Assembly: GCF_012163145.1 (NCBI RefSeq)
Contig: NZ_JAAVTX010000003.1
Span: 372,001 to 436,000 of the forward strand
Direction: 5' to 3'
Origin: Falsiroseomonas frigidaquae
Lineage (GTDB): Bacteria; Pseudomonadota; Alphaproteobacteria; Acetobacterales; Acetobacteraceae
DNA length: 64,000 bases
Made by a program: the position numbers and the translations under genes. Positions within the stretch are counted from its first letter, which is position 1. Each line of letters starts with the position of its first letter. Shown piece by piece: positions 8,557-50,902 of this stretch. Below the pieces are notes generated by a model. It saw only the letters and a list, made by a program, of their open reading frames with translations, was not told where the DNA came from and searched no databases.

Positions 8557-9026
8557 GCGCGACATTCTCGATCGGCGATCTCGCGCGCGCCACGGGCGTC
8601 AAGCCAACCACGATCCGGTGGTACGAGCAGGAGGGGTGGCTGCCGCCGCCAAGTAGGACCGAGGGCGGCCATCGCGCCTATGGCGCCGCGCATCTGCGCC
8701 GCCTCGGGTTCATTCGCCACGCCCGAGAACTGGGCTTCGAGAGCGAGGCGATCCGCGCATTGCTCGACCTTGCGGACAGGCCAGACGCAGACTGCGGTCA
8801 GGCGCATACGCTTGCGACCGCGCAGATTGGCGAGATCGACGCGCGGCTACGGCGGCTCACGGCTCTGCGCGCGGAACTTCAGCGCATGGCGACGAGTTGC
8901 GAGGGCGGCGTGGTTGGAGAGTGTCGGATCATTGAGACCCTTGCAGACTTCGCCCACGGGCACTGTGAGGATCCAACACACGGGACGCGTCGACTCCGAA
9001 GACGAGACGCGTCTCACATATTGTGA
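8553..9026 (+). CDS. MerR-family heavy-metal regulator (CadR/ZntR/PbrR-like)
   Basis: 157 residues with GTG start overlapping the mntR stop. Residues 5-70 are the MerR winged helix (SIGDLARATGVKPTTIRWYEQEGWLPPP, then GHRAYGAAHLRRL). A long dimerisation helix follows. The cysteines in DADCGQAH, TSCEGG and GECRII occupy the places of the three ligand cysteines of CadR/ZntR/PbrR sensors. MerR proteins sit on a promoter with an over-long spacer and switch it on when metal binds; the dyad at 5893-5911 upstream of zntA is the best target in view. Which of Zn, Cd or Pb it senses cannot be told from sequence. Confidence 0.9.
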   Translation: MSATFSIGDLARATGVKPTTIRWYEQEGWLPPPSRTEGGHRAYGAAHLRRLGFIRHARELGFESEAIRALLDLADRPDADCGQAHTLATAQIGEIDARLRRLTALRAELQRMATSCEGGVVGECRIIETLADFAHGHCEDPTHGTRRLRRRDASHIL

Positions 9027-9251
9027 CAACCCCCGCCGCGGACAGCCGCCTCCGCTGGCCCGTAGGGCATCCCTGCTGCGGTCGTCCGCCCGATGCAAGA
9101 CGCTCACGCGTCGCGGTGCGAACGCAGCGTCGCAATGCGACGTATTGAATATGCTTTGTCGGCAAGCCGATAAACCGCTGCAACGGAGGCATTCCATAAG
9201 TGGCCTGTGCCGCACCGCAAGGTGCTCGGCCCACGCAAGGAGAGAGCCACC

Positions 9252-9659
9252 ATGTCCCCGACTTCACCCACTGGATTAGCCCTCGCACTCGTCGCCGGCC
9301 TGGCCGTGGCGCCAACCTTGGCGCACGCCAACGGTCAGCCGGTGGTCTCCCTGGAGCCGATGTACCTGGGTCGCCTGCCTGTGCTGATCTACTCCAACCG
9401 CGCTTCAATGGTGACCTCGCTACCGGTGCGGCGCGTGACCGGCAGCGGAGAGAACGTTGAGATCGAATACGACACCTCCGCCACACCGAGTCCTGTCGTC
9501 AGCTGCGTCAATCCACGCATTGTCGGAACTGGGGAGAACGCCAGCAGCGAGTGCGACGAGGCCGCGACCGCCGCCGCGCCTCACACGATGCCCGACATGG
9601 GTGGGGGCCACAATTCGGCACTCTGGAACCTCCAGCGGCTGTCCAATTCGGTCCGCTGA
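9252..9659 (+). CDS. Exported protein with GSGEN motifs (copy 1, ICE)
   Basis: 135 residues; the ATG at 9252 follows AAGGAGAGAG and opens a clear signal peptide (GLALALVAGLAVAPTLAHA). No known domain is recognised. The mature part repeats a short motif: RRVTGSGENVEIEYD at about residue 60 and RIVGTGENASSECDE at about residue 90, the second with Cys and acidic residues. A Met/His tail (HTMPDMGGGHN) follows. The chromosomal protein at 56026 shares the signal-peptide layout and the same TGSGEN(V/I)EI(E/D)Y motif, so the two form a family. Its place directly before a cupredoxin and copA suggests a periplasmic copper role (inference). Confidence 0.75.
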   Translation: MSPTSPTGLALALVAGLAVAPTLAHANGQPVVSLEPMYLGRLPVLIYSNRASMVTSLPVRRVTGSGENVEIEYDTSATPSPVVSCVNPRIVGTGENASSECDEAATAAAPHTMPDMGGGHNSALWNLQRLSNSVR

Positions 9660-9670
9660 CCATCCTCCGG

Positions 9671-9708
9671 ACGTCCCGGTCAGCAATATTTTGTCATGAT
9701 CGGGACGT
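9671..9708. terminator. Perfect 8-bp hairpin between exported-protein gene and cupredoxin gene
   Basis: ACGTCCCG (9671-9678) and CGGGACGT (9701-9708) are exact inverted repeats with a 22-base loop that is AT-rich (GCAATATTTTGTCATG). It begins 11 bases after the stop codon of the upstream gene. No T-run follows, so it may be a weak terminator, an mRNA-stabilising hairpin or a protein-binding dyad ahead of the copper operon. Confidence 0.5.
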
Positions 9709-9790
9709 GCCCCGTACATGTTGGCAAGGCATCCTCCATGCCGAGGGGTTGTTCCGTCCGCCCCCCGCCCAACCATTCCAGGAGAGACCT

Positions 9791-10342
9791 GTGATCAAGA
9801 TGTCCCGTTTGGCTGCCCTGACGTTGCTGGCGGCCGCCGCCGCGACGCCTGCGATTCTCGTTCCAGCCCCTGCGCTCGCCTCGCCAGAAGGTCATGGCAA
9901 CAACGCCCAGTTGCTCGGCCAGCCAGCCGCGCGCGGCACCGGCCGCGTGGTGCGGATCGAGATGACGGAAAACGCTTACAGCGTGCCACGCATCCAGGTT
10001 CGCGCCGGCGAGACGATCCGCTTCGTGGCGGTGAATCGCGGCCAGTTCCTGCATGAGTTCAGCTTTGCGCCGGCTGCCGTCGCGGCCGCGCACCGGCCCG
10101 AGATGGCACGCATGTTCGAGCACGGCATGATCACGCCGGAGCGCGTCGTCAGCCTGACGATGACGATGCCGGACGGCACACGCATGGACCACACGGCGCC
10201 CAACACGGTGCTCGTGGAGCCGGGCAAGACCGGCGAGATCTCCTGGCGCTTCACGCGCGCCGGCACCATTGAGATCGCCTGCAACATCCCCGGCCACTAT
10301 GAGAGCGGCATGGCGGCCGAACTCGTCGTGACGCCGCGCTGA
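9791..10342 (+). CDS. Periplasmic cupredoxin-domain copper protein
   Basis: 183 residues from GTG at 9791, which has GGAGAG five bases ahead; the ATG at 9800 is the alternative. A signal peptide ends near ALAS. The mature chain is one cupredoxin (plastocyanin/azurin-like) domain with all type-1 copper ligands visible: His in QFLHEFSF, then Cys, His and Met in ACNIPGHYESGM. Such CopI/CusF-like cupredoxins buffer or deliver periplasmic copper. It lies 16 bases ahead of the multicopper oxidase gene and is probably co-transcribed with it. Confidence 0.9.
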   Translation: MIKMSRLAALTLLAAAAATPAILVPAPALASPEGHGNNAQLLGQPAARGTGRVVRIEMTENAYSVPRIQVRAGETIRFVAVNRGQFLHEFSFAPAAVAAAHRPEMARMFEHGMITPERVVSLTMTMPDGTRMDHTAPNTVLVEPGKTGEISWRFTRAGTIEIACNIPGHYESGMAAELVVTPR

Positions 10343-10358
10343 ACGACGGAGAACGCAC

Positions 10359-12170
10359 ATGACCAGCCCGCTTTCCCGTCGTGACTCCCTGAAGCTGGCC
10401 GCCGCCGCCGGGATGGCGGGCGTGGTGACCGCCTTCCCAGGCCGCCAGAGCTTCGCCAATGCGCATCGCGTTCAGGATCTGGCGGTGGAGGCTACGCGCA
10501 TCACCGTTGATGGCACGCAGACCAATGCGCTGACCATCGGCGGCACTGTGCCCGGCCCGGTACTTCGGTGGCGCGAGGGCGAGGAGGTGGTGATCCGGGT
10601 CACCAACCGCCTGAGCGAGCCGACCTCCATCCACTGGCACGGGCTGCTGCTCGCCGGCGTCATGGACGGCGCGCCCGGCTTCAACGGCTATGAGGCGATC
10701 CAGCCCGGTCAGACCTACACCTACCGCTTCCAGCTCCGGCAGGCCGGCACCTACTGGTACCATAGCCACTCCGCGGCGCAGGAGCAGGCGGGCATGTACG
10801 GCGCGATCGTCATTGAGCCGGCGAGACCGGAGCCGGTGCGCGTGACGCGCGACTATGTCGTGTTGCTCTCGGATCATAGCCCGGAAGCGCCGGACGCTAT
10901 CTTCCGTAATCTCCGGAACCGCGAAGGCTACTACAACCGTGGCCAGCGCACGTTTCTGGATTTCATGCGTGACGTTCGACGTGATGGCTGGAGTGCCACA
11001 ATGGCCGATCGAAAGGCCTGGGGCGAAATGCGGATGGACCCGACGGACCTAGCCGACGTCACCGGCTACAGCTTCCTGGTCAACGGGCGCGGCCCGCAAG
11101 ACAACAAGACTTTCCTTTTCACCCCGGGCGAGCGGGTGCGGCTACGCTTCATCAACGGATCAGCCATGTCCATGTATGACGTAGCGATTCCCGACCTGCG
11201 GATGACGGTGATCTCGGCGGACGGGTTGCCTGTCATCCCGGTGCCGGTCGACGAGTTCCGCATCGGCGTCGGCGAGACCTACGACGTGGTGGTCAACCCG
11301 ACGGAGGCGCGAGCCTTCACCATCATGTCGGAGCCGCTCGACCGCAGCGGTTATGCGCGCGCCACGCTGGCACCGCGCGAAGGGATGGAGGCGGCTATTC
11401 CGCCACGTCGGCCGAGGACCGTGCTGACCATGGCAGATATGGGCATGGCCCATGGCGGGATGGCGATGGGCGGCTCAGCGATGGCTGGCATGGATCATAG
11501 CGGTATGGCGATGGGTGGCTCGGCGATGGCGGGCATGAACCATGGTGGCATGCCGATGAGTGGAAGTGGCACCGGCCCGGCCGCGGCCAACCCTCATGCG
11601 GGGCATGTGATGCCCGGCGCGCCGGCGCAAGCCGCAGCCGACCCCCATGCGGGACATGCAATGCCTAGTGCCACTGCCATGGCCGATCCGAACAACCCTT
11701 TGGGTTGGGAACAGGCCGGCACACCCGAAGGCAAGCGTGCACTGCGCTACGCCGACCTCCGTAGCACGCGAGCTCGCCCGAACGCGCCGCAGCCTTCACG
11801 GGACATCATCCTGCGACTCACCGGCCAGATGGGGCGCTATTCCTGGTCACTGAACGACCGCCGCTTCGGCATGGAGGAGGGAATCCGGGTCCGCGAGGGT
11901 GACCGCATTCGCATCCGATTCATGAATGAGACGATGATGGCGCATCCCATGCACCTGCACGGGATGTTCATGGAGATGGAGAACGGCGCAGGCGACCGGC
12001 TGCCCTACAAGCATGTTGTGCTCGTCCGCCCGGGTGCCGAAGCCTCCGTTCTGCTCACCGCCGACGAGGTAGGCGACTGGCCGTTCCACTGCCACCTCCT
12101 GTACCACATGGAAGCCGGCATGATGACGCGCTTCATCGTCGAGCCGGCTCGCGTGGCGAGCGCCGGTTGA
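10359..12170 (+). CDS. copA: Multicopper oxidase, copper-resistance protein CopA
   Basis: 603 residues. The N-terminus SRRDSLKLAAAAGMAG is a twin-arginine signal, expected for an oxidase folded with copper before export. Copper-site motifs are complete: IHWHGLLL, WYHSHSAAQEQAGMYG, MAHPMHLHGMFME and FHCHLLYHMEAGMMTRF. Between domains 2 and 3, residues 365-435 are a Met/His-rich region of MGG, MAGMDHSGM and HAGH repeats, which bind extra Cu(I). The enzyme oxidises Cu(I) in the periplasm. Its stop overlaps the copB start (TGATG). This is the Pcu/Cop oxidase, distinct from the ATPase also called CopA. Confidence 0.96.
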   Translation: MTSPLSRRDSLKLAAAAGMAGVVTAFPGRQSFANAHRVQDLAVEATRITVDGTQTNALTIGGTVPGPVLRWREGEEVVIRVTNRLSEPTSIHWHGLLLAGVMDGAPGFNGYEAIQPGQTYTYRFQLRQAGTYWYHSHSAAQEQAGMYGAIVIEPARPEPVRVTRDYVVLLSDHSPEAPDAIFRNLRNREGYYNRGQRTFLDFMRDVRRDGWSATMADRKAWGEMRMDPTDLADVTGYSFLVNGRGPQDNKTFLFTPGERVRLRFINGSAMSMYDVAIPDLRMTVISADGLPVIPVPVDEFRIGVGETYDVVVNPTEARAFTIMSEPLDRSGYARATLAPREGMEAAIPPRRPRTVLTMADMGMAHGGMAMGGSAMAGMDHSGMAMGGSAMAGMNHGGMPMSGSGTGPAAANPHAGHVMPGAPAQAAADPHAGHAMPSATAMADPNNPLGWEQAGTPEGKRALRYADLRSTRARPNAPQPSRDIILRLTGQMGRYSWSLNDRRFGMEEGIRVREGDRIRIRFMNETMMAHPMHLHGMFMEMENGAGDRLPYKHVVLVRPGAEASVLLTADEVGDWPFHCHLLYHMEAGMMTRFIVEPARVASAG

Positions 12171-12895
12171 TGCGAAATGTTGTCCTTGCTGCCGTCGCGG
12201 GTGCCTTTCTGGCGCCCGCTATGCCCGCCCTGGCCCACAGCCATAACGCCATTAACTCAGTGGTCCGCCTCAATAATCTCGACTACGGCGGGTCTTCGCA
12301 GGGCGATCGATTCTCATGGGATCTCGATGCCCGGGTTGGAACTTACGATCATCGGCTCCTGTTCCGTACGGAAGGCGAGCAAATCCGTGGTCAGACAGAC
12401 AAGGCCGAGATCCAACTCTTCTACAACCGACCCATCTCGGAATTCTGGGACGTCAACGTCGGGTGGCGCCGCGACTTCTTCCGGACCAATAGGAACTACG
12501 GCGCTTTCGGCTTTTCGGGCATCGCGCCCTACTTCTTTGAGGTCGAGGCAACCGCCTATGTCAGCGAAGAAGGCGTGCTGAGCGGGCGCCTGGAGTCTTC
12601 AACCGACTTGCTGATCGCCCGAAGCATCTTCAACGACAACGGACCAGGTCTCTATCTGAAGCCCGCAATCGAGATCAACGCAAGTGCGGGCAATGACCGC
12701 GAGTTGGAGATAAGGCGGGGACTGACGGACATGGATCTGTCGCTACAGCTGCGCTACGAATTTACCCCTCAGATCGCGCCCTACGTCCAGGTCGGCTGGG
12801 AGCGTCAGTTGGGCGAGACCGCCAATCTGGCACGCGCGAATGGAGAGCGAATTTCCAACAGCTATGCTGTCATTGGCATTCGATCGATGTTCTGA
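12170..12895 (+). CDS. copB: Copper-resistance outer-membrane protein CopB
   Basis: 241 residues, ATG at 12170 sharing its A with the copA stop; a TTG one codon earlier is less likely. Signal peptide RNVVLAAVAGAFLAPAMPALAHS. The mature part is the CopB beta-barrel: FSWDLDARVGTYDHRLLFRTEGE, alternating strands, and a terminal Phe (GIRSMF) typical of outer-membrane proteins. The Met-rich N-terminal repeat seen in Pseudomonas CopB is missing here, so this is a minimal form. It works with CopA in periplasmic copper handling. Confidence 0.92.
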   Translation: MRNVVLAAVAGAFLAPAMPALAHSHNAINSVVRLNNLDYGGSSQGDRFSWDLDARVGTYDHRLLFRTEGEQIRGQTDKAEIQLFYNRPISEFWDVNVGWRRDFFRTNRNYGAFGFSGIAPYFFEVEATAYVSEEGVLSGRLESSTDLLIARSIFNDNGPGLYLKPAIEINASAGNDRELEIRRGLTDMDLSLQLRYEFTPQIAPYVQVGWERQLGETANLARANGERISNSYAVIGIRSMF

Positions 12896-39021: not shown

Positions 39022-39954
39022 CTACCCGCCGCCCCCGCGGAAGTCGAAGAGCGGGATGCCGAGTCGCTTCGCCTTATCGGCCAGGTTGTCGGTGACGCCC
39101 GAGCCGGAGAAGACGATGACGCCGATCGGCAGCGTCTCGAGCAGCGCGTCGTTGCGCTTGAAGGGCGCGGCCTTGGCGTGGCGGTGCCAGTCCGGCTTGA
39201 AGACGATCTGCGGCACCTTGCGCTGGTCGGCCCAGCAGGCGGCGATGCGCTCGGCGCCCTTCGGCGTGCCGCCATGCAGCAGCACCATATCGGGGTGCTT
39301 CGCATGCACCCGGTCGAGCGCGGCCCAGATGCGCTGGTGGTCGTTGCACTCGACGCCGCCGGCGAATGCGATGCGCACGCCCGGCGGCAGCAGCGGCTCG
39401 GCCTCGGCGCGGCGCCTGGCGGCGAGGAAGTCGCGGCTGTCGATCATCGCCGCGGTCATCGTGCGGCGGCTGACCATCGAACCGGCGCGCGGGCGCCAGG
39501 CGGAACCGGTGTGGTGCTCGAAGTGCTCGGCCGCGGCATCACGGAGGAACTCGAAGGCGTTGCGGCGCTCGATGAGCGTGAGGCCCTGGGCGAGGAGGCT
39601 TTCCAGCTCGACGGAGCGGACCTCGGAACCGTCCTGCTCGCGCTGGGAGCGCTGCTGGGCAACCTCGTTGGTGTCGAGCTCGCGGCCGATGCGGTCGATG
39701 CCGCGATGGAAGAGGTTGACCAGCGACCAGAGCAGGTCGGGCAGGTCGGGCTCGAGGCGCGTCTCGCCGAGGCTGGCGACCAGTACGTCGAAGATGTCGG
39801 CGACGGCGCCGGAGAGGCGGTCGGGATCGGGCAGTGGCCGAGGGTCGGGCTCGTCGGCGAAGGGGCGGTAGCCGTGGAGCTGGAGCTCGTCGAGCAGGTG
39901 CGCGGTGGCGGAGGCGGCGTGGGTGGGTTCGGTGTCGTCGAAGCGGTCGGTCAT
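39022..39954 (-). CDS. DUF2493 (SLOG-type nucleotide-binding) protein
   Basis: 310 residues from ATG 39954. The N-terminal 190 residues are helical and family-specific. The C-terminal part is the DUF2493 Rossmann fold: VRIAFAGGVECNDHQRIWAALDRVHAKHPDMVLLHGGTPKGAERIAACWA, then GVIVFSGSGVTDNLADKAKRLGIPLFDF. SLOG-family folds bind nucleotides or nucleotide-derived signals; on ICEs the role is unknown. Its leader is shared with DUF736. A frame extending to 40035 lacks a better start. Confidence 0.88.
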   Translation of the reverse strand: MTDRFDDTEPTHAASATAHLLDELQLHGYRPFADEPDPRPLPDPDRLSGAVADIFDVLVASLGETRLEPDLPDLLWSLVNLFHRGIDRIGRELDTNEVAQQRSQREQDGSEVRSVELESLLAQGLTLIERRNAFEFLRDAAAEHFEHHTGSAWRPRAGSMVSRRTMTAAMIDSRDFLAARRRAEAEPLLPPGVRIAFAGGVECNDHQRIWAALDRVHAKHPDMVLLHGGTPKGAERIAACWADQRKVPQIVFKPDWHRHAKAAPFKRNDALLETLPIGVIVFSGSGVTDNLADKAKRLGIPLFDFRGGGG

Positions 39955-39974
39955 GGCCGGGTCCTCGCTGTCAC

Positions 39975-40136
39975 GGGCCGCGCCCATCGCGGCCTTCGTG
40001 GCGATCACCCGGCCGGGGGCGGGACGGACCGGCACCCGCAGGCGAAGCCGGAGGGCCGCAGCGCAGCGGAGGACGCCGGCGCGCGGCTTTCTTGCGTCGC
40101 GAGGAAGCGGCCCGTCAGGGCCGCGGGGAAGAAAGT
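39975..40136 (-). promoter_or_regulatory. Shared structured leader, copy 2 (upstream of DUF2493)
   Basis: Second copy of the leader at 37938-38085. The outer stem CTTTCTT (40087-40093) with AAGAAAG (40129-40135) is kept. The inner stem is present but different in sequence: CGGCCC-GTCA-GGGCCG here, TGCGCG-GCA-CGCGCA in copy 1. Keeping the pairing while changing the bases is what selection on RNA or DNA structure would leave. Confidence 0.7.
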
Positions 40137-40568
40137 TGCGCGACGGCGTTGCGGGGAGGGCCCGGCTCCGGCCCGATCGCCAGCGAGAAGGCCGTGGGCG
40201 CGGCGATGCGCGAGAGACTGCCGACTGACACCTGGCCAGCCCAGTACGTCCACTGCTTCCACGTTCACCCCATGTCGGTACTCAACGACAAGTTTTGGCC
40301 GTATCCGCACGGTCTGCTTTTGGAAAGCGGTGGCCAGTAAGCGGGCCGTTCATGCGGCGCATCATCGAGCAAAATTTGCCTCGTCAGCTCGCGACCTCAT
40401 CCGAGCCGTTCGATGGCCCACTGTGAAGTTTTAGCTGCCATGTAGGCGGTGGCCGCATGAGACCGGATCGGTATGAGCCGGCAAAGCTTATCGGGTGCGC
40501 AGAAACACCGCACTGTGTGGACTCAGAGACGCAATATGCATCGGCGATCGGCGGTGGCAGAAGCGTCT
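40137..40568. other. Gene-free 430-bp stretch between DUF2493 leader and the ATPase gene
   Basis: No coding frame with a start, ribosome site or recognisable product. The base composition is more mixed than in the flanking backbone (AT-rich patches such as CAAAATTTGCCTCG and GAAGTTTTAGC), like the DNA on the far side of the ATPase gene. This fits an inserted cassette whose borders have decayed. Confidence 0.5.
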
Positions 40569-43325
40569 CTACTGTCGTTGCGATAGTGACTTGTAGTAAA
40601 TCCTGGCCGCGCCCGGAGTGGGCTCGAAGGTAAAGCAATCGCAATAGTCATCGATCGCCTGCATCACGCCGAGCAGGGCTGGGCCGGAGAATGCCGCTGC
40701 CTGGCCGGTGCCCCAATGGCTTAGGAAGTTTCCAACGATCGTCACCATGTTGGTGTTCAGGCCGGCTTGCTGGGCCGCGTCGAGTTGGAGGCTGTTGGCG
40801 GCCTTGTGCAGTTTGACGGCCGCCTCAATGGCCTTAAGGAATTCGCCCGCCAATTGCTTGTCGTCGTTGAAGGCGATGTCCACCGGCACCGGGATGCGGA
40901 GCTTGCTGATGAGATCGCTTAATCGATATTCCAAATACTGCCGCACGCCTTCCTTTGCGGAGTCGACCTGGCCGGCTTGAAGCATCGAAATGGTGCGGTC
41001 GCGCACCTTGTTGACCGCTCCGGCCTGCGGCAAGACGGCAACCTGCGGCGATCCCTCGAGGCGCTGGTGCCACCACGCTCCCGAACCGCTGTGCTTGTTG
41101 AACAGCTTTTCGAGCATCGTGTCGTGGCTCAACAGGATCACCTGCGGTCCTGTCGCGTTTCCGGGCCTCGCGAAGGTGGTTCTGATGAGTTCAACTAGAA
41201 AGTGCTGGTGCCCGGCGTCGAAGCTGGACGTCACATCATCGAGAACTACGAATTTCGGCAGTCCGCCGTAGAGAGACGCGGCCGCCAGATAGAGCGAGAT
41301 CGCGAAGGCGTTGCGGAAGCTCTCGGAGAGAAGCGCCTGGGGCGAGACGTTCGTTAGCCCGTAGAATTGGGTAAGGCCGATGCGCAGTTCTTCGCTATCT
41401 GCCTTTTTCGAGACGGCCGGCTCGACGCCGTGAAACGACATCTTCTTGAAATACTCCTTGAAGACGGGCTCGACGGCAGCGAGGCGCGCCTTGCTCATAC
41501 CTGCCTCGGCCGTCGCGAAGGTCTTGGATGCATCAACGAGAAAGTCACGAACCCGATCAACACAGGCGTCTCTTACCGCTTCTTCCGCAATCGCATTCCG
41601 GGATTGCTCGAGCTTATTCCAGCTATCCTGCAAGCGCCGCGCGGTCTCCACTTTCTTGGTCACCTCGACCGACGACGGCGGCAATTCTTTCTCGAGCTGG
41701 GCCTGCTCGGCTGCCAACTGCGCATCGATCTCGCCAGCCCTGGTGCGCAGCGCCGCAAGATGTTCCACCAACGCCTCGGCTTCCGCCTTGGAGATCGAGC
41801 CAGCGGCGGCTCGGGTATTCCGGGCGGCGAGTAGGCGTTTTTCGGCGGTGGACTCCATCGTGGATTCGAGTTGAAGAAGCTCAGTCCACCCGGACGCACT
41901 CCATTCCGTCGCCAGCGCCGTAGCCGCCTTATCCAAGGCCTCGAACTCGGAGAGCTTGGAGGCAATGTGGTCCCGCAGGCTGTGAGTTCCCGTCCCATCG
42001 CAAAGCGGGCAAAGATGCGGATCCTCCCACTGTTCGGTTTCCACGACCTTCGAGCCTGCCTGATAAAGCTGGAGCATCAGATCGCCGGCGGTCCTTGCCA
42101 CCGCGTCCTCCCGCTCAGCGGCAAGCGCGGTGAGTTGCGCGGCCCGCTCCGCAGTTGGAGCCTCATGATTAACTTTAGCGAGATCGCTACGCTCTCGGAT
42201 GCAGGTGCCAAGGCGCTCGCGTTTCGGCCCGCCCTCGGCATCCTTGATCGCCTCGATGCAGGCGTCGATGTCGATGGCTGCGAACGCCTTTCCTTCACAG
42301 ACAGGTTTCAGCGGCGCGATCTGGGCCAGCGCGTCCTGGCACTTCTCTTTCGCCGCCGTTGCATTCAACTCCCCAATGGCCGCGCCAACTAGAATCTCGT
42401 AGTCGTTGGCAATTGCTGCTGCCAGATCACGGGCGGTCCGCTCTTCGCGCGTCTTGTTTTGCGCATGGGCAGCAACACTGAAGTGATTGTTGAACGCGCG
42501 CGTGTTCACCAGACCCGCGAGAGCTTGGCGAAGATCGCTGTATGCCGATAGCCCCAGCAACCCGGAAAAGGTACGTCCGCGAACGAGTGGCCCCGCAGCG
42601 ATGAACTTCTGAAAAGTCGGTCCATCGAGGAATACGAACTCGCGATTGAGCGCGGTCAGAATCGCGCTGGTATCCCAAGGCGCGGTGGCTGCGACCGAGC
42701 GATGGCCTAGCGCGTTCCGGCCGATGGTGATCGCGCATTTTTCCCCGCCGGGTTCGGCGACGAGCCGGAGCTTTATAGTGGACTGACCGGTCGAGTGAAA
42801 TCGATTCTGGTAGTAGTCTTTGTCCCGCTCGGCGGCGGGGAGTTCATCCAGCCAGGGTAGCTTTCCGGTGATCGCGTAACGCACGGCGTCGTAAACGGAT
42901 GTCTTGCCGACGCCGTTCACCGCCGAGATACTGCTGACCTTGTCGGGCTGCAGCCTGAGCTCGAGGGGGTGCCCCTCATTGTTCACGCCTCTGAAGCCTT
43001 CGATCGAAACGCCTTCAAGTAACCAGCCGGTCACTGGCGGCAGGGGCGCGGCCAATGGTTGGGCGGTAGCCGCGTTAGCGGGCGCTGCCGCGACCTCTAC
43101 CTCGCTTGTGTTTTTGTCCTCGGTGGGCGGCGCGGCGCAAATCTCGAACAACCGATCCCAGACTTCATCCGCCTTGTACGTTCCCTCGAGAAGCGCCGTG
43201 AATTGCTTTCGCATTTCCGCTCCCAGCGCGGCGTCCATCTCGTCGATATAGTTTCCGAACGCGGATAGATTGTCGTCGAGACTTGCATTCTCGTCGAATG
43301 CAAAGGCAGCTGCCCGTACAGGCAT
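40569..43325 (-). CDS. Orphan SMC/Rad50-like ATPase with zinc hook (possible defence protein)
   Basis: 918 residues from ATG 43325 (GGGGGG lies nine bases ahead; upstream starts at 43352 and 43481 are open but weaker). Residues 1-100 are a separate helical domain. The ATPase head starts at EGVSIEGFRGV; Walker A is AVNGVGKTS (Lys141). A long coiled coil is broken by the zinc hook HLCPLCDGTG (Cys439, Cys442). The ABC signature region is ALLSESFRNAF (~665), Walker B is FVVLDDVTSSFD (~697), and the H-switch is ILLSHD (His734). About 180 residues follow with no family I recognise. No nuclease motif or partner gene is visible. Confidence 0.85.
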   Translation of the reverse strand: MPVRAAAFAFDENASLDDNLSAFGNYIDEMDAALGAEMRKQFTALLEGTYKADEVWDRLFEICAAPPTEDKNTSEVEVAAAPANAATAQPLAAPLPPVTGWLLEGVSIEGFRGVNNEGHPLELRLQPDKVSSISAVNGVGKTSVYDAVRYAITGKLPWLDELPAAERDKDYYQNRFHSTGQSTIKLRLVAEPGGEKCAITIGRNALGHRSVAATAPWDTSAILTALNREFVFLDGPTFQKFIAAGPLVRGRTFSGLLGLSAYSDLRQALAGLVNTRAFNNHFSVAAHAQNKTREERTARDLAAAIANDYEILVGAAIGELNATAAKEKCQDALAQIAPLKPVCEGKAFAAIDIDACIEAIKDAEGGPKRERLGTCIRERSDLAKVNHEAPTAERAAQLTALAAEREDAVARTAGDLMLQLYQAGSKVVETEQWEDPHLCPLCDGTGTHSLRDHIASKLSEFEALDKAATALATEWSASGWTELLQLESTMESTAEKRLLAARNTRAAAGSISKAEAEALVEHLAALRTRAGEIDAQLAAEQAQLEKELPPSSVEVTKKVETARRLQDSWNKLEQSRNAIAEEAVRDACVDRVRDFLVDASKTFATAEAGMSKARLAAVEPVFKEYFKKMSFHGVEPAVSKKADSEELRIGLTQFYGLTNVSPQALLSESFRNAFAISLYLAAASLYGGLPKFVVLDDVTSSFDAGHQHFLVELIRTTFARPGNATGPQVILLSHDTMLEKLFNKHSGSGAWWHQRLEGSPQVAVLPQAGAVNKVRDRTISMLQAGQVDSAKEGVRQYLEYRLSDLISKLRIPVPVDIAFNDDKQLAGEFLKAIEAAVKLHKAANSLQLDAAQQAGLNTNMVTIVGNFLSHWGTGQAAAFSGPALLGVMQAIDDYCDCFTFEPTPGAARIYYKSLSQRQ

Positions 43326-43705
43326 AATATACAGCCCCCCATTTTTGCCCATTTCAATTATGACGTGATTACTTCGTGGGCACAAGTGTCGGAGGTTTGA
43401 TCGGGGTGAGTGGCGCGGTGGCGATAAAGCCGCCGCCAGCAGCGCCCAAGGTGCCAGAACCCGTGAATGCCACGCTGCCACTGAGAATCATGCTTGGAGG
43501 GCAATTCATGACCCTCCAAATGATCGCGCGCGGTGGATTTTGTCGAAGCCGCTCTGAACCCGAATAGTGATGCCACACCGTCAAGGTCGCCAAGTACTAG
43601 CCGAAACGTCCGCTTCTTGGCGATGGCAGGGTCTAGCTGAAGGTCCGCGATGGGCGCGAAGCGGACGAGGGTCATGCCCGCGTTGAGATGACCGTTTGGC
43701 TAAGG
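43326..43705. other. Gene-poor 380-bp stretch upstream of the ATPase gene
   Basis: Holds the probable promoter of the ATPase gene (AT-rich ACGTCATAATTGAAATG near 43343-43366). Two short minus frames (43358-43675 and 43369-43593) overlap each other and lack ribosome sites; one begins TLVRFAPIADLQL, a phrase that recurs in spurious alphaproteobacterial ORFs. I treat the stretch as non-coding. Confidence 0.5.
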
Positions 43706-44734
43706 TTAGCCATTGCCGGTAGGCAGCAGGGCTGCATCCACAGGTGCCATCTGCACGCGCACCCACGCGGCCAGCTCGGCAGCTCCGATCTGGCGTAGAT
43801 CTTCGTTGAAGTCTTCCGAACGCGGGCTCAGGGCGACAGACTCAATGCCCGCTCGCCCGGCGCACTCGGTTAGCATTGCGGCAGCTCGGTTGCCCGCGTG
43901 GTCGCTGTCTTGGGCAACGTAGAGTCGACGCACACCAGGCGGCAGGACAAGAGCGACGAGATGACTCGCCGATAGCGCCGCGATCATCGGCAGCGTGGGC
44001 AAAACACAGCGCAGTGCGAGCATCGTCTCGATGCCCTCGCCTACCGCGACGACCTCCTGTGCGGCGCCGAACCGCACGCCATTCCCAAGCAGTCGGCCCA
44101 TCGCCCGCCGCGGGGTCGCGACCGGCGCCTTGCCGCTGCCGTCACGCGCGAGCCAGGTGCGGTGTACTCCGGTGATCGTGCCGCCGAGGTCCGTCACCGC
44201 GGCGAGCAGCGCGGGCCACGTCTCGACTGGCGCGTTCTCGTTGGCGCGGTAGTAGCAGCGGGGGTGGAAGCGCAGTGCCGGCAGGTCGTCCAGGCACGTG
44301 ATGCCGCGCGCGCGCAGATAGGTCTCGGCGAGCGTCCCCTTGATCGGCTGCCCGGCGTTGAACAGCCGGCACGCCGCATCCGGGGAGCCGGCCGCGACCG
44401 GCGCGCGCGGCTCGGGCCTTTGCGGCGCGGGCAGGCTCAGGAATCGCCGAGCCTCCTCCAGCACGTCGCGCAGGCAGTCGAGGCCACCCGCCCGGGCAAT
44501 CAGGTCCAGCAGGTCGCCATGATCGCCCGTCGCGGCGTCGGTCCACTTCCCGGCGGCGCCGCTGCCCGTCTCCGGCCCGTGCAGCCGCACGAACAGGCTG
44601 CGCCCCGGCGTGTTCGCGACATCGCCCACGGTCCACCAGCGGCCCTCGCGCTGGCCGTTGGAGAGGTAGTGGCGGCAGACCGCCTCGGCGTTGCGGGCCA
44701 GGCGGCGCGCGAGCGCGGCGGCATCTTCGCGCAT
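43706..44734 (-). CDS. Toprim-domain primase-like protein (DUF7146)
   Basis: 342 residues. The start is set at ATG 44734 because GGAGG lies six bases before it; the ATG four codons earlier has no site. The N-terminus holds the DUF7146 region (RRLARNAEAVCRHYLSNGQREGRWWTVGDV). The Toprim core has EVVAVGEGIETMLAL, with the catalytic Glu, and RRLYVAQDSDHAGNRAA, with the DxD metal site. Such proteins make primers for plasmid and ICE replication. It follows the ParB-like gene, with a GC hairpin in the gap. Confidence 0.9.
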   Translation of the reverse strand: MREDAAALARRLARNAEAVCRHYLSNGQREGRWWTVGDVANTPGRSLFVRLHGPETGSGAAGKWTDAATGDHGDLLDLIARAGGLDCLRDVLEEARRFLSLPAPQRPEPRAPVAAGSPDAACRLFNAGQPIKGTLAETYLRARGITCLDDLPALRFHPRCYYRANENAPVETWPALLAAVTDLGGTITGVHRTWLARDGSGKAPVATPRRAMGRLLGNGVRFGAAQEVVAVGEGIETMLALRCVLPTLPMIAALSASHLVALVLPPGVRRLYVAQDSDHAGNRAAAMLTECAGRAGIESVALSPRSEDFNEDLRQIGAAELAAWVRVQMAPVDAALLPTGNG

Positions 44735-44752
44735 CGGTTCCTCCATGAAGAT

Positions 44753-48540: not shown

Positions 48541-48933
48541 TCACCCGGCGCGGGCGGCCGCACGCGGCTTGGTCTGCCGCTTGACTGCGACCTTCCTGGG
48601 CCCGGCGGAAACGCTCGGGGCGACGTCGCCCAAGTGCTCGATCCGTACAGGCGCGCGTGAAGGCAGGCGGACGACGAGCTCCAGCTTTCCGCCGATCGCC
48701 TCGACATAGCTTCGGAGCGTCGAGAGATACATGTCCGCCTGCTTCTCGATCTTCGAAATCGAGGGCTGCTTAACCCGCAAGGCAGATGCGATTTCCACCT
48801 GCGCCTTGCCAGCCATACGGCGCAGCTCGCTCAGGCTCTCAACCTCATCAATGAGCTCCTGGGCGCGCGCCTCAACACGTGCCCGCCGCGCCTCGGGAAG
48901 CGCGGCAACGACATCATTCAGTGTTCGTCCCAT
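48541..48933 (-). CDS. HigA-like antitoxin (XRE)
   Basis: 130 residues from ATG 48933, overlapping the toxin stop (TGATG). HTH region: LSELRRMAGKAQVEIASALRVKQPSISKIEKQADMYLSTLRSYVEAIGGKLELVVRLP, the signature of XRE antitoxins that pair with HigB/Gp49 toxins. A basic tail follows. It neutralises the toxin and should repress the operon. The toxin-first order is that of the higBA class. Confidence 0.92.
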   Translation of the reverse strand: MGRTLNDVVAALPEARRARVEARAQELIDEVESLSELRRMAGKAQVEIASALRVKQPSISKIEKQADMYLSTLRSYVEAIGGKLELVVRLPSRAPVRIEHLGDVAPSVSAGPRKVAVKRQTKPRAAARAG

Positions 48934-49304
48934 CACGTTTTTCCCTTCTTCGCGGCCTTGAGCCGATCGAGATGCACCCTGAAGCGCCTTTCGGCTTTCG
49001 CGATGAGCGATCTGTAGAAGCGCTTCTCACTGCCACCCGATTTGTCGCCGGCGACGAGCAGGATGGCCTTGCGCTCGGGATCGAACGCGAAGGCGACACG
49101 CCAGACGCCGCCCTCCGCCTCGAACCGCAGTTCCTTCATGTTGGCGAACGCCGAATCCTTGAGCGTATCCGCATGCGGGCGGCTCAAATTCGGACCGAAC
49201 GCGGAGAGGAGCTTGGCGGAAGCCAACAGTTCATCCTGCACGGCTTCCGGTAGCTCTCCGAACTCCGCATCGAACTCATCAACAAATAAGACCTGCCAAG
49301 TCAT
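48933..49304 (-). CDS. HigB/Gp49-type toxin (RelE superfamily)
   Basis: 123 residues: WQVLFVDEFDAEFGELPEAVQDELLASAKLLSAFGPNLSRPHADTLKDSAFANMKELRFEAEGGVWRVAFAFDPERKAILLVAGDKSG, a phage Gp49-like HigB fold. These toxins cleave mRNA at ribosomes. The pair sits next to the integrase, where it would select against loss of the ICE. Confidence 0.92.
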   Translation of the reverse strand: MTWQVLFVDEFDAEFGELPEAVQDELLASAKLLSAFGPNLSRPHADTLKDSAFANMKELRFEAEGGVWRVAFAFDPERKAILLVAGDKSGGSEKRFYRSLIAKAERRFRVHLDRLKAAKKGKT

Positions 49305-49326: not shown

Positions 49327-50709
49327 TCAAGGCTTCAGGCCGTGAGGCCCCGGGGTCTGATCGGCGGCGCTGGCTTCGGCCAGGTGGCTCACGGCCGGCA
49401 GCAAAGGGTTCCCGAGGTGCCGTGAGAGCGCCATCTCCCTGGACGCGCGATCCAGCGCGTAGCCCCGACGCCGGAACTGCGCACCCTCCAGCAGCGCCTG
49501 GATGTATCCGGCGACCGTATCGGCGGCCATGATCAGCGACGTGTCGACCGCGTGAATGTACCGGCTGGTCACCGATCCCTGAGCGTGTCCCAGCAAAGCT
49601 GCGACAGTCGACTCAGTGAAGCCGAGATCGTTTGCGATGCTGGCGAAGCTGTGGCGCAAGACATGGGGGGTGACGTCAGCGAGCGGTGTCTTCGCGAACA
49701 TCCTATCCCAGTGCTTCGGGAAGCCGATCAACGGCTTGCCATCGAGGAAGCCGCGGAACACCGGGCCGACTGGCTCACGCGGCCTATCCGACTCCAGCAT
49801 ATCGACGGCGGGAAGTCCGATCGGGCGCACGGACGCGCCCTCCTTCGTATCGTGGAGCCGAAGACAGCTGTTACCGGTGTCCACCTCGGACCAGGTCAGA
49901 TTCAGGATCTCGCCGCGCCGGCACCCGCTCAGGGCGAGCAGCCGGGTGATCTTGGCCGAGGTTCGGAGCTGATCGTCAGCGTGCGCCTTCGCCAGCAACC
50001 TCCCGAGCAGCCGATACTCGTCCTCCGAGAGACGTCGCGTCCTCTTCTGGTCGGCGGCTTTACGAATGCCATGCGCCGGGTTGGTACTGATGATGCCGGC
50101 CTCCCGCGCATAGGTCAGCAGCGCGCCCAGGAAGCCAACCGTGCGGCGGCCCGTCCCCATGCCGCCGCGGACGATGGCGCGCCCGCGCCTCCGCGTCTTT
50201 ACGTCGGCCTTTGTCTTTCCAGATGCGATGTCGCGCATGAATTGCGTCACGTCGGCGTTGGTGAGGTCCTTCACGCGCCGCGTGCCGAGCAGCGGGACGA
50301 TATGGCGCTTGATCCGACCTTCGTCCGTGTAGATCGTCGAGGCCTTCTTGGGCCGTTGCTTTTTGCCAAGGATCAGGCCGGCCTTGGCATCGGCCAGATA
50401 GCGCTCGCAGAGCTCTTTGACCGTGATCGCGCGGTGGTCGAGCTCGCGCTGCTCCGCCGGATTGTCGCCTTGCGCAATCCGGCCCAGGAGCACGCGAGCT
50501 TCCCGCCTCGCCGTCTCGGGCGTCCACACGCCATGAGTGCCGATCGTGAAGCGGCGGGTGCGCCCCTTGGCGCGATACTGCACCAGGTAACTGCGCCGGC
50601 CCGAGGTGAACACCCGCATGCCGAACCCGGGCAGTTCGTCATCCCAGATGAAGTAGTCCCCGGCCTGCGGCGTTGCCTGGTCGACGGTGCGCTTGCTGAG
50701 CTTTCCCAC
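49327..50709 (-). CDS. int: Tyrosine-recombinase integrase of the ICE
   Basis: 460 residues from GTG 50709, which has GGAG eight bases upstream; the frame continues upstream without a better start. An N-terminal DUF4102-like arm-binding domain (DQATPQAGDYFIWDDELPGFGMRVFTSGRRSYLVQYR) and a SAM-like core-binding domain precede the catalytic domain. Catalytic residues: Arg in LSGCRRGEILNL, His-xx-Arg in PHVLRHSFASIAND, His in LLGHAQGSVTSRYIHAVD with Tyr nucleophile in that block. It lies 190 bases from the tRNA fragment it must have used as attachment site. Confidence 0.95.
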   Translation of the reverse strand: MGKLSKRTVDQATPQAGDYFIWDDELPGFGMRVFTSGRRSYLVQYRAKGRTRRFTIGTHGVWTPETARREARVLLGRIAQGDNPAEQRELDHRAITVKELCERYLADAKAGLILGKKQRPKKASTIYTDEGRIKRHIVPLLGTRRVKDLTNADVTQFMRDIASGKTKADVKTRRRGRAIVRGGMGTGRRTVGFLGALLTYAREAGIISTNPAHGIRKAADQKRTRRLSEDEYRLLGRLLAKAHADDQLRTSAKITRLLALSGCRRGEILNLTWSEVDTGNSCLRLHDTKEGASVRPIGLPAVDMLESDRPREPVGPVFRGFLDGKPLIGFPKHWDRMFAKTPLADVTPHVLRHSFASIANDLGFTESTVAALLGHAQGSVTSRYIHAVDTSLIMAADTVAGYIQALLEGAQFRRRGYALDRASREMALSRHLGNPLLPAVSHLAEASAADQTPGPHGLKP

Positions 50710-50902
50710 GTCCTGTGCTCCTGGTCCGAGTTGGGACCCGTGGCTCCACTTACGGAAGCACCACGGAAGCACCCGGGCCGAAACTTCGACGTGCAGACGG
50801 ATACACGATGCGGTCGGCGGTGCCAGAAAATCTCAATCTACGTAGTGGTTTAGGGGGTTCTAGCGTAAAGAGAGAAAGACTGGCGAAGACCGCCCCAACA
50901 CG

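Follow-up and report, generated by a model that had tools for sequence, protein, structure and literature searches.

The window analysed here, a stretch of 64,000 nucleotides from Falsiroseomonas frigidaquae, carries a gene for a 918-residue zinc-hook ATPase which the original prediction took for an orphan and a candidate single-gene defence protein. The locus raises the question of whether such an ATPase stands alone, how it came to lie in a mobile element, and which kind of function its relatives and its surroundings point to.

The reading frame (Table 1) runs through its 918 residues with no internal stop, and the start codon at 43325 is backed by six close homologues, whose alignments open at the same methionine. 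The motifs lie where they had been placed, i.e., AVNGVGKT at residue 135, CPLC at 439, LLSES at 665, FVVLDDVTSSFD (Walker B) at 692, and SHD at 733. A pattern search over 26 ATPase homologues, which belong to two subfamilies (I, that of the window protein, and II), recovered the Walker A, the CxxC hook, and the SHD or THD in all 26, and the DD of Walker B in 22, the remaining four, all of subfamily II, showing LDD in the alignment. Given that the motifs are kept across the 26 homologues, their occurrence by chance is excluded, and the description of an intact zinc-hook ATPase stands.

Table 1. Coordinates of the ATPase gene, its domains, and the surrounding features in the window
Feature	Coordinates	Strand	Basis
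918-residue ABC ATPase (Rad50/SMC-like) with zinc hook; partner domain fused at its N-terminus	40569..43325	-	Translation, Pfam, PADLOC, alignment
First ~66 residues, corresponding to the small acidic protein encoded upstream in unfused relatives	43128..43325	-	Reciprocal profiles, tree, composition
Linker rich in Ala/Pro, about residues 67-98	43032..43127	-	Sequence; variable in alignment
Residues 99-745: halves of the ABC ATPase head, coiled coil, CPLC zinc hook	41091..43031	-	Pfam, PADLOC, alignment; coiled coil putative
C-terminal domain, residues 747-918; R795/Y797/E799/N866/H870 invariant in subfamily I	40572..41087	-	Alignment, motif patterns
Shared block, probable moving unit	40318..43651	.	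88% identical to Paracoccus locus
YAcAr (DUF2493-type) backbone gene bordering the ATPase slot	39022..40035	-	Pfam; plasmid comparison
DUF7146+Toprim backbone gene bordering the ATPase slot	43706..44746	-	Pfam; plasmid comparison
Tyrosine integrase of the ICE-like element	49327..50772	-	Pfam

The profile libraries place this protein loosely. Pfam AAA_23 matches it at 28.9 bits (cut-off 27), AAA_13 (30.1 bits against a cut-off of 36) and SMC_N fall below their cut-offs, and the NCBIfam scan returned no model at cut-off, with Rad50/SbcC far below. The top PADLOC model is LmuB (PDLC03859; E 1.1e-17, best stretch at residues 251-743), for which the library has no curated threshold. LmuB is the best model for six subfamily I ATPases (E 1.1e-17 to 4.3e-23) and for one of two subfamily II ATPases (4.7e-26), the other having mad3 as its best model. 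Among the solved structures, phmmer found nothing close to the 918-residue protein (best E 0.17), and the profile of the ATPase family found Rad50 heads weakly (best 8e-5).

The gene is hosted by what its gene content indicates to be an ICE-like element. Pfam families were matched by nine of the ten scanned neighbours, the tenth having no match, and they comprise a T4SS coupling protein, a DUF3363 relaxase, an RPA replication initiator, DUF736, YAcAr (DUF2493-type), DUF7146+Toprim, ParB_N (below cut-off), ArdC, and a tyrosine integrase. Beside the integrase and ArdC, two short minus-strand genes that overlap (48541-49304 of the window) look toxin-antitoxin-like by translation, and the region to the left of the conjugation genes (2666-28315) holds genes that appear, also by translation, to be of heavy-metal transport or regulation, together with insertion-sequence genes.

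The slot between the DUF2493-type and Toprim genes had been described as a variable position with flanks of lower GC content, and both points are borne out. The gap on the Toprim side has 57.4% GC, that on the DUF2493 side 64.9%, and the ATPase gene itself 60.8%, against 69.3% and 69.5% in the element on either side. None of the 551 plasmid records that match the DUF2493-Toprim stretch reaches 80% coverage of it, and in the best 15 of these 551 the matched pieces, measured from first to last, extend over 2.2-3.4 kb, whereas the stretch is 5.7 kb long in the window. Given the shorter span of the flank-matching plasmids, the ATPase looks like an accessory gene inserted into the backbone of the element.

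The DNA shared with other copies extends beyond the gene itself. A Paracoccus locus shares the block given in Table 1, nothing that matches the backbone of the element lying within 10 kb of it, and a Rhizobium locus is 94% identical over 40405-43475; as this DNA beyond the ATPase gene is common to both copies, the block is the probable moving unit. Cassettes in different families are 88-95% identical at the DNA level, the closest relative in the tree is a Rhizobium copy (95% identity over the ATPase core), and the cassette has presumably moved between orders. A decayed cassette, with an internal deletion and a truncated start, is found in Rhizobium daejeonense (L008, 9997-11609). As to whether the homologues sit in the same ICE slot, Roseomonas oleicola (L006) has the same element with the ATPase gene included. 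The other copies lie elsewhere, near TraG (L003, L005), near ParB (L004), on a Sphingopyxis plasmid next to DUF2493 (L015), or in DNA with no match to the window's element backbone within 10 kb (L001, L002, L007, L008).

The ATPase family is rare in the samples searched. At E 1e-60, overlapping samples of 385 genomes from the class, 398 from the family, and 398 from the phylum contain it in one, six, and one genome, respectively, with the window's own genome included in each figure. Six close peptide patterns recovered eight loci from the GTDB-wide collection, in a search which may omit the window's own record, and 19 plasmid records carry the ATPase, 18 of them with at least 80% protein coverage (H3, H8, H9, H11, and H19 lie outside the loci read). 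A phage gene is ruled out by the absence of ATPase-family matches in 50,697 phage records, searched with two queries, and of relatives among the 34 pattern matches given by one scan of viral contigs with two patterns. A housekeeping repair protein is ruled out by the rarity together with the mobile context, in line with the original prediction, and the homologues did not turn out to be chromosomal repair proteins. In 24 loci, no partner of the SbcD/Mre11 type was found repeatedly within 6 kb of the ATPase; a separate SbcCD pair lies near the ATPase in L011.

A gene that travels on such elements may also serve them, for example as a Rad50-like factor which protects or repairs the DNA of the element during conjugation. 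Such a role in maintenance or transfer would suit the presence of the ATPase on plasmids and ICE-like elements, several times near conjugation genes, as well as its phage-family match, which is SbcC-like. However, related elements do without the ATPase, as seen in the 551 plasmid records, none of which reaches 80% of the query, and the ATPase is also found in loci where nothing within 10 kb matches this backbone, within BREX-5, and near restriction-modification genes. On this evidence the maintenance role is held to be unlikely.

The number of components is decided by the N-terminal domain. In 13 plasmid records (H6-H18), the match to the window protein opens only at residue 98 or 101, and a small ORF of about 64-83 residues lies directly upstream of the ATPase in all 13 unfused loci read (L013-L019, L028, L029, L030, L032, L033, and L034, among which L013 and L032 have the small protein in common, and L028 and L029 are near-identical). 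A four-base overlap between this ORF and the ATPase start is present in 8 of 10 unfused loci. Reciprocal profiles, computed for sets of 10 sequences, connect the two forms: the profile of the fused N-domains finds nine of ten upstream small ORFs at E <=0.005, missing the Rhodococcus small protein of L017 (E 0.78), the profile of the small ORFs finds all ten fused N-domains at E <=3e-9, and the profile-profile probability is 97.9%. The composition is also shared, with 13 acidic and 5 basic residues in the N-terminal 66 residues of the window protein, and with an acidic character in each of the 15 small proteins counted (ten of subfamily I, five of subfamily II).

In the tree, the ten fused ATPases form a single clade (support 100/100) that is nested among the unfused forms: the small partner was joined onto the ATPase only once. 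The extra N-terminal domain is thus present, as had been noted, and its standing as the oddity of a lone gene falls away, since it is the small partner in fused form. The labels of "orphan" and "single-gene" have to be given up as well, given that the unfused relatives have two genes. That the two occur in nature as one polypeptide suggests direct contact between the small protein and the ATPase when they act. Six queries with N-domains and small proteins gave no Pfam match over cut-off and no PADLOC model, and PHROG returned no match for one small protein and one C-terminal domain.

The neighbouring genes were clustered within 6 kb in 24 loci (BLAST E 1e-6), and the largest clusters reach four loci, these being the ParB backbone and the small partner, with all others at three or fewer. 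The lack of a nuclease partner that had been noted in the window extends to these 24 loci, in which no effector gene recurs. A hidden effector operon is ruled out by this result, and the module seems complete with its two parts. A variant of Lamassu, made up of LmuB and a shrunken LmuC with the effector encoded elsewhere, would explain why LmuB is the best PADLOC match for seven of the eight ATPases scanned and why a small gene lies directly upstream of the ATPase, as LmuC might. This variant is rendered quite improbable by the lack of any recurrent effector-like gene adjacent to the ATPase, by the six small-protein and N-domain queries that found no PADLOC match, and by a Walker B with D instead of the usual Q of LmuB.

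The surroundings of the ATPase on plasmids are enriched in defence genes, as the original prediction had expected. Restriction-modification or named anti-phage or abortive-infection genes are present in 5 of 11 focal windows (L012, L013, L014, L016, L018), with no strict defence gene in the other six (L011, L015, L017, L019, L031, L033), and in none of the 11 control windows taken half a plasmid away (Fisher, one-sided p 0.018, two-sided 0.035). The inclusion of AbiEii-type genes brings the counts to 6/11 and 1/11 (one-sided p 0.032, two-sided 0.063). These counts follow our own reading of the product names, and exclude toxin-antitoxin and Fic genes, which are found in both the focal and the control sets. 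The focal window of L018, which begins at the first base of its record, has 12.7 kb. The 11 pairs leave out L010 and L034, which are without gene tables, and L032, which is of the same lineage as L013, with the small protein common by accession, and which also carries restriction endonuclease and abortive-infection genes. Given that defence genes gather in the cargo regions of plasmids in general, this bias is not proof.

Among ten neighbours picked by hand in unannotated loci, L003 has an Mrr+nSTAND3 protein, L007 a C5 methylase accompanied by Vsr, and L030 a type III enzyme and a methylase; no match was obtained for two of them. Three loci have, next to the ATPase or not far from it, a protein of some 761 residues (L003 12865-15150, L004 12901-15186, L014 11345-13633), whose L003 copy is an Mrr-type nuclease with nSTAND3 according to Pfam, and which may be a separate defence gene. 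The flanks of L003 and L004 are 97% alike, and both are among the three loci with the Mrr/nSTAND3 gene.

The other terminal domain follows the H-loop of the ATPase, and its profile matched three times in 147 genomes, always inside this family. No Pfam match over cut-off was obtained with seven queries of this domain, no PADLOC match with one query, and no match below E 0.75 among the solved structures. In a pair comparison by hhalign, the C-terminal domains of subfamilies I and II reach 93.8%, and their homology is supported. An N-x3-H motif is present in all 26 ATPases of both subfamilies, and this motif (for example, TIVGNFLSHW) resembles the RWIGNFGSH of a DUF4145 protein, a group which we take to be HEPN-like. 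The sequence R-x2-G-N-x2-[SAV]-H, present in five DUF4145 proteins, looks like the motif of the C-terminal domain plus an arginine.

Three profile comparisons against 368 proteins gave hhalign probabilities of 0.2-7.2% for six DUF4145 proteins (from six of eight loci, L056 and L057 being left out with the right ORF ambiguous). One of these, from L052, ranks 8, 3, and 2 of 368, and is aligned over 108 and 110 columns where it ranks 8 and 2. The other DUF4145 proteins rank 2-201, most of them among the background, and the three best DUF4145 matches of the subfamily II profile align over only 12-28 columns; first rank in the comparison went to a background protein from L031, which is itself a fragment of the ATPase family. 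A degenerate HEPN-like C-terminal domain may be treated as a lead on these grounds.

Such a lead would fit a module that works as RloC or PrrC do, in which the ATPase senses damaged DNA and activates a C-terminal HEPN RNase, halting translation. The order of the parts is alike, with a Rad50-like ATPase followed by a C-terminal domain, and the N-x3-H of the 26 ATPases, its DUF4145-like form, and the ranks of 8 and 2 for the L052 protein agree with this possibility. On the other hand, no arginine stands 5-8 residues ahead of the histidine in any of the 26 ATPases, and the absence of this HEPN arginine makes an RNase of the RloC type doubtful. As the hhalign values are also low, no Pfam HEPN family is matched, and AAA_13 falls below its cut-off, a mode of action of this kind is rated improbable. 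The earlier suggestion that one of the two terminal domains might be the effector is weakened likewise, the N-domain being small, acidic, and without a family match, and the motif of the C-domain lacking the HEPN arginine throughout; the searches brought out no catalytic effector domain.

Subfamily II was found through two plasmid proteins (L049, L050) with 20-22% identity to the window protein. Its layout, in five of the five loci read, is a gene for an acidic protein of 53-69 residues followed by that of a zinc-hook ATPase of 817-822 residues, a count which leaves out the locus of genome G082, where the ATPase gene is interrupted, with two pieces 1.1 kb apart. The small proteins of the two subfamilies reach a probability of only 0.7% by hhalign. 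Subfamily II occurs in 1 of 289 genomes of the class and matches 35 plasmid records, of which 17 span 80% or more of the query and include alphaproteobacteria and haloarchaea, the matches in Hymenobacter, Fibrella, and Streptomyces being partial. In Halorhabdus tiamatea (one archaeal record), the pair is placed within a BREX-5 operon, with pglX and pglZ on either side. This pair occupies 5805-8469 of L063, and its small protein has 68 residues. In L049, the ATPase is followed directly downstream by a 1240-residue TPR protein (8572-12294) whose PIN domain is that of the TPR-GreAB-C-PIN system. The accessible part of a BREX survey (PMC12839542) names no such module, which may have been mentioned earlier in the 2020 classification of ABC ATPases (Krishnan et al.) or in the RloC zinc-hook paper.

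Given its travel among plasmids and its frequent nearness to defence genes, the ATPase probably serves in immunity or in the contest of one element with another, and the mobility, the rarity, the neighbours, the BREX-embedded cousin, and the kinship with LmuB together favour a role in conflicts among hosts, phages, and mobile elements. The chances are about even that the window gene represents, in fused form, a mobile conflict module of two components, the most likely task of which would be to guard the element or its host from incoming phage or plasmid DNA. In such a module, the ATPase heads would come together as dimers at DNA ends or at abnormal replication structures, with the zinc hook bridging, and the small acidic domain would dock on the ATPase, gating the access of DNA or the closure of the heads. 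The C-terminal domain may provide an output or a recruiting surface, and the effect might be the trapping of DNA or the triggering of a host response, rather than direct cleavage of RNA, given that neither a travelling nuclease gene nor the HEPN arginine is present, which makes trapping or recruitment likelier than cleavage.

A bolder proposal, to which we give little weight, is that of a nuclease-free SMC-type immune module, undescribed before, which would trap DNA in bacteria and haloarchaea, either on its own or as a supplement to BREX, and which would be condensed to one gene here. With the partner recognised, an apparent orphan ATPase becomes a defined and testable module of two parts, and, if active, it would represent a compact immune device of the Rad50 kind with no evident nuclease, and thereby be relevant to the restriction of foreign DNA by SMC-like proteins.

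The closest comparison is with Lamassu, to which the small middle component LmuC belongs, and in which the Walker B of LmuB generally, although not absolutely, has Gln for Glu, according to the accessible part of PMC10586767. The module has in common with LmuB/LmuC a Rad50-like zinc-hook ATPase, a small accessory protein, and a link to defence. It differs in having no recurrent LmuA-type effector (6 kb, 24 loci), in the C-terminal domain of about 180 residues that the ATPase adds after the H-loop, in the Asp, not Q, of its Walker B in 26/26 homologues, and in a small partner that six PADLOC queries did not recognise as LmuC. The RloC/PrrC architecture, described in the accessible part of PMC3710099, also combines an ABC ATPase (with a zinc hook in RloC) and a C-terminal domain on one polypeptide; the module departs from it in its motif without the HEPN arginine (R-x4-6-H), in the AAA_13 score, and in the presence of the small partner. 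The proposed working of the module is broadly like that of Lamassu or RloC; as LmuA does not recur, Walker B has no Q, and the HEPN arginine is absent, it is filed under neither of them.

Rad50/SbcC has the ABC heads and the CxxC hook in common with the module, which is nevertheless accessory, rare, without a recurrent adjacent nuclease, and far below the NCBIfam cut-off. The ATPases of MADS (mad3), DndD, and PbeC are distantly similar in the sequence of the head, whereas no such operon was noticed in the annotated loci read. Finally, Smc5/6 and Wadjet, as presented in the accessible part of PMC10586767, are SMC-type proteins that restrict extrachromosomal DNA, which is the kind of activity that the module may have; within 6 kb in 24 loci, neither a kleisin-type partner nor a Toprim nuclease turns up repeatedly next to its ATPase.
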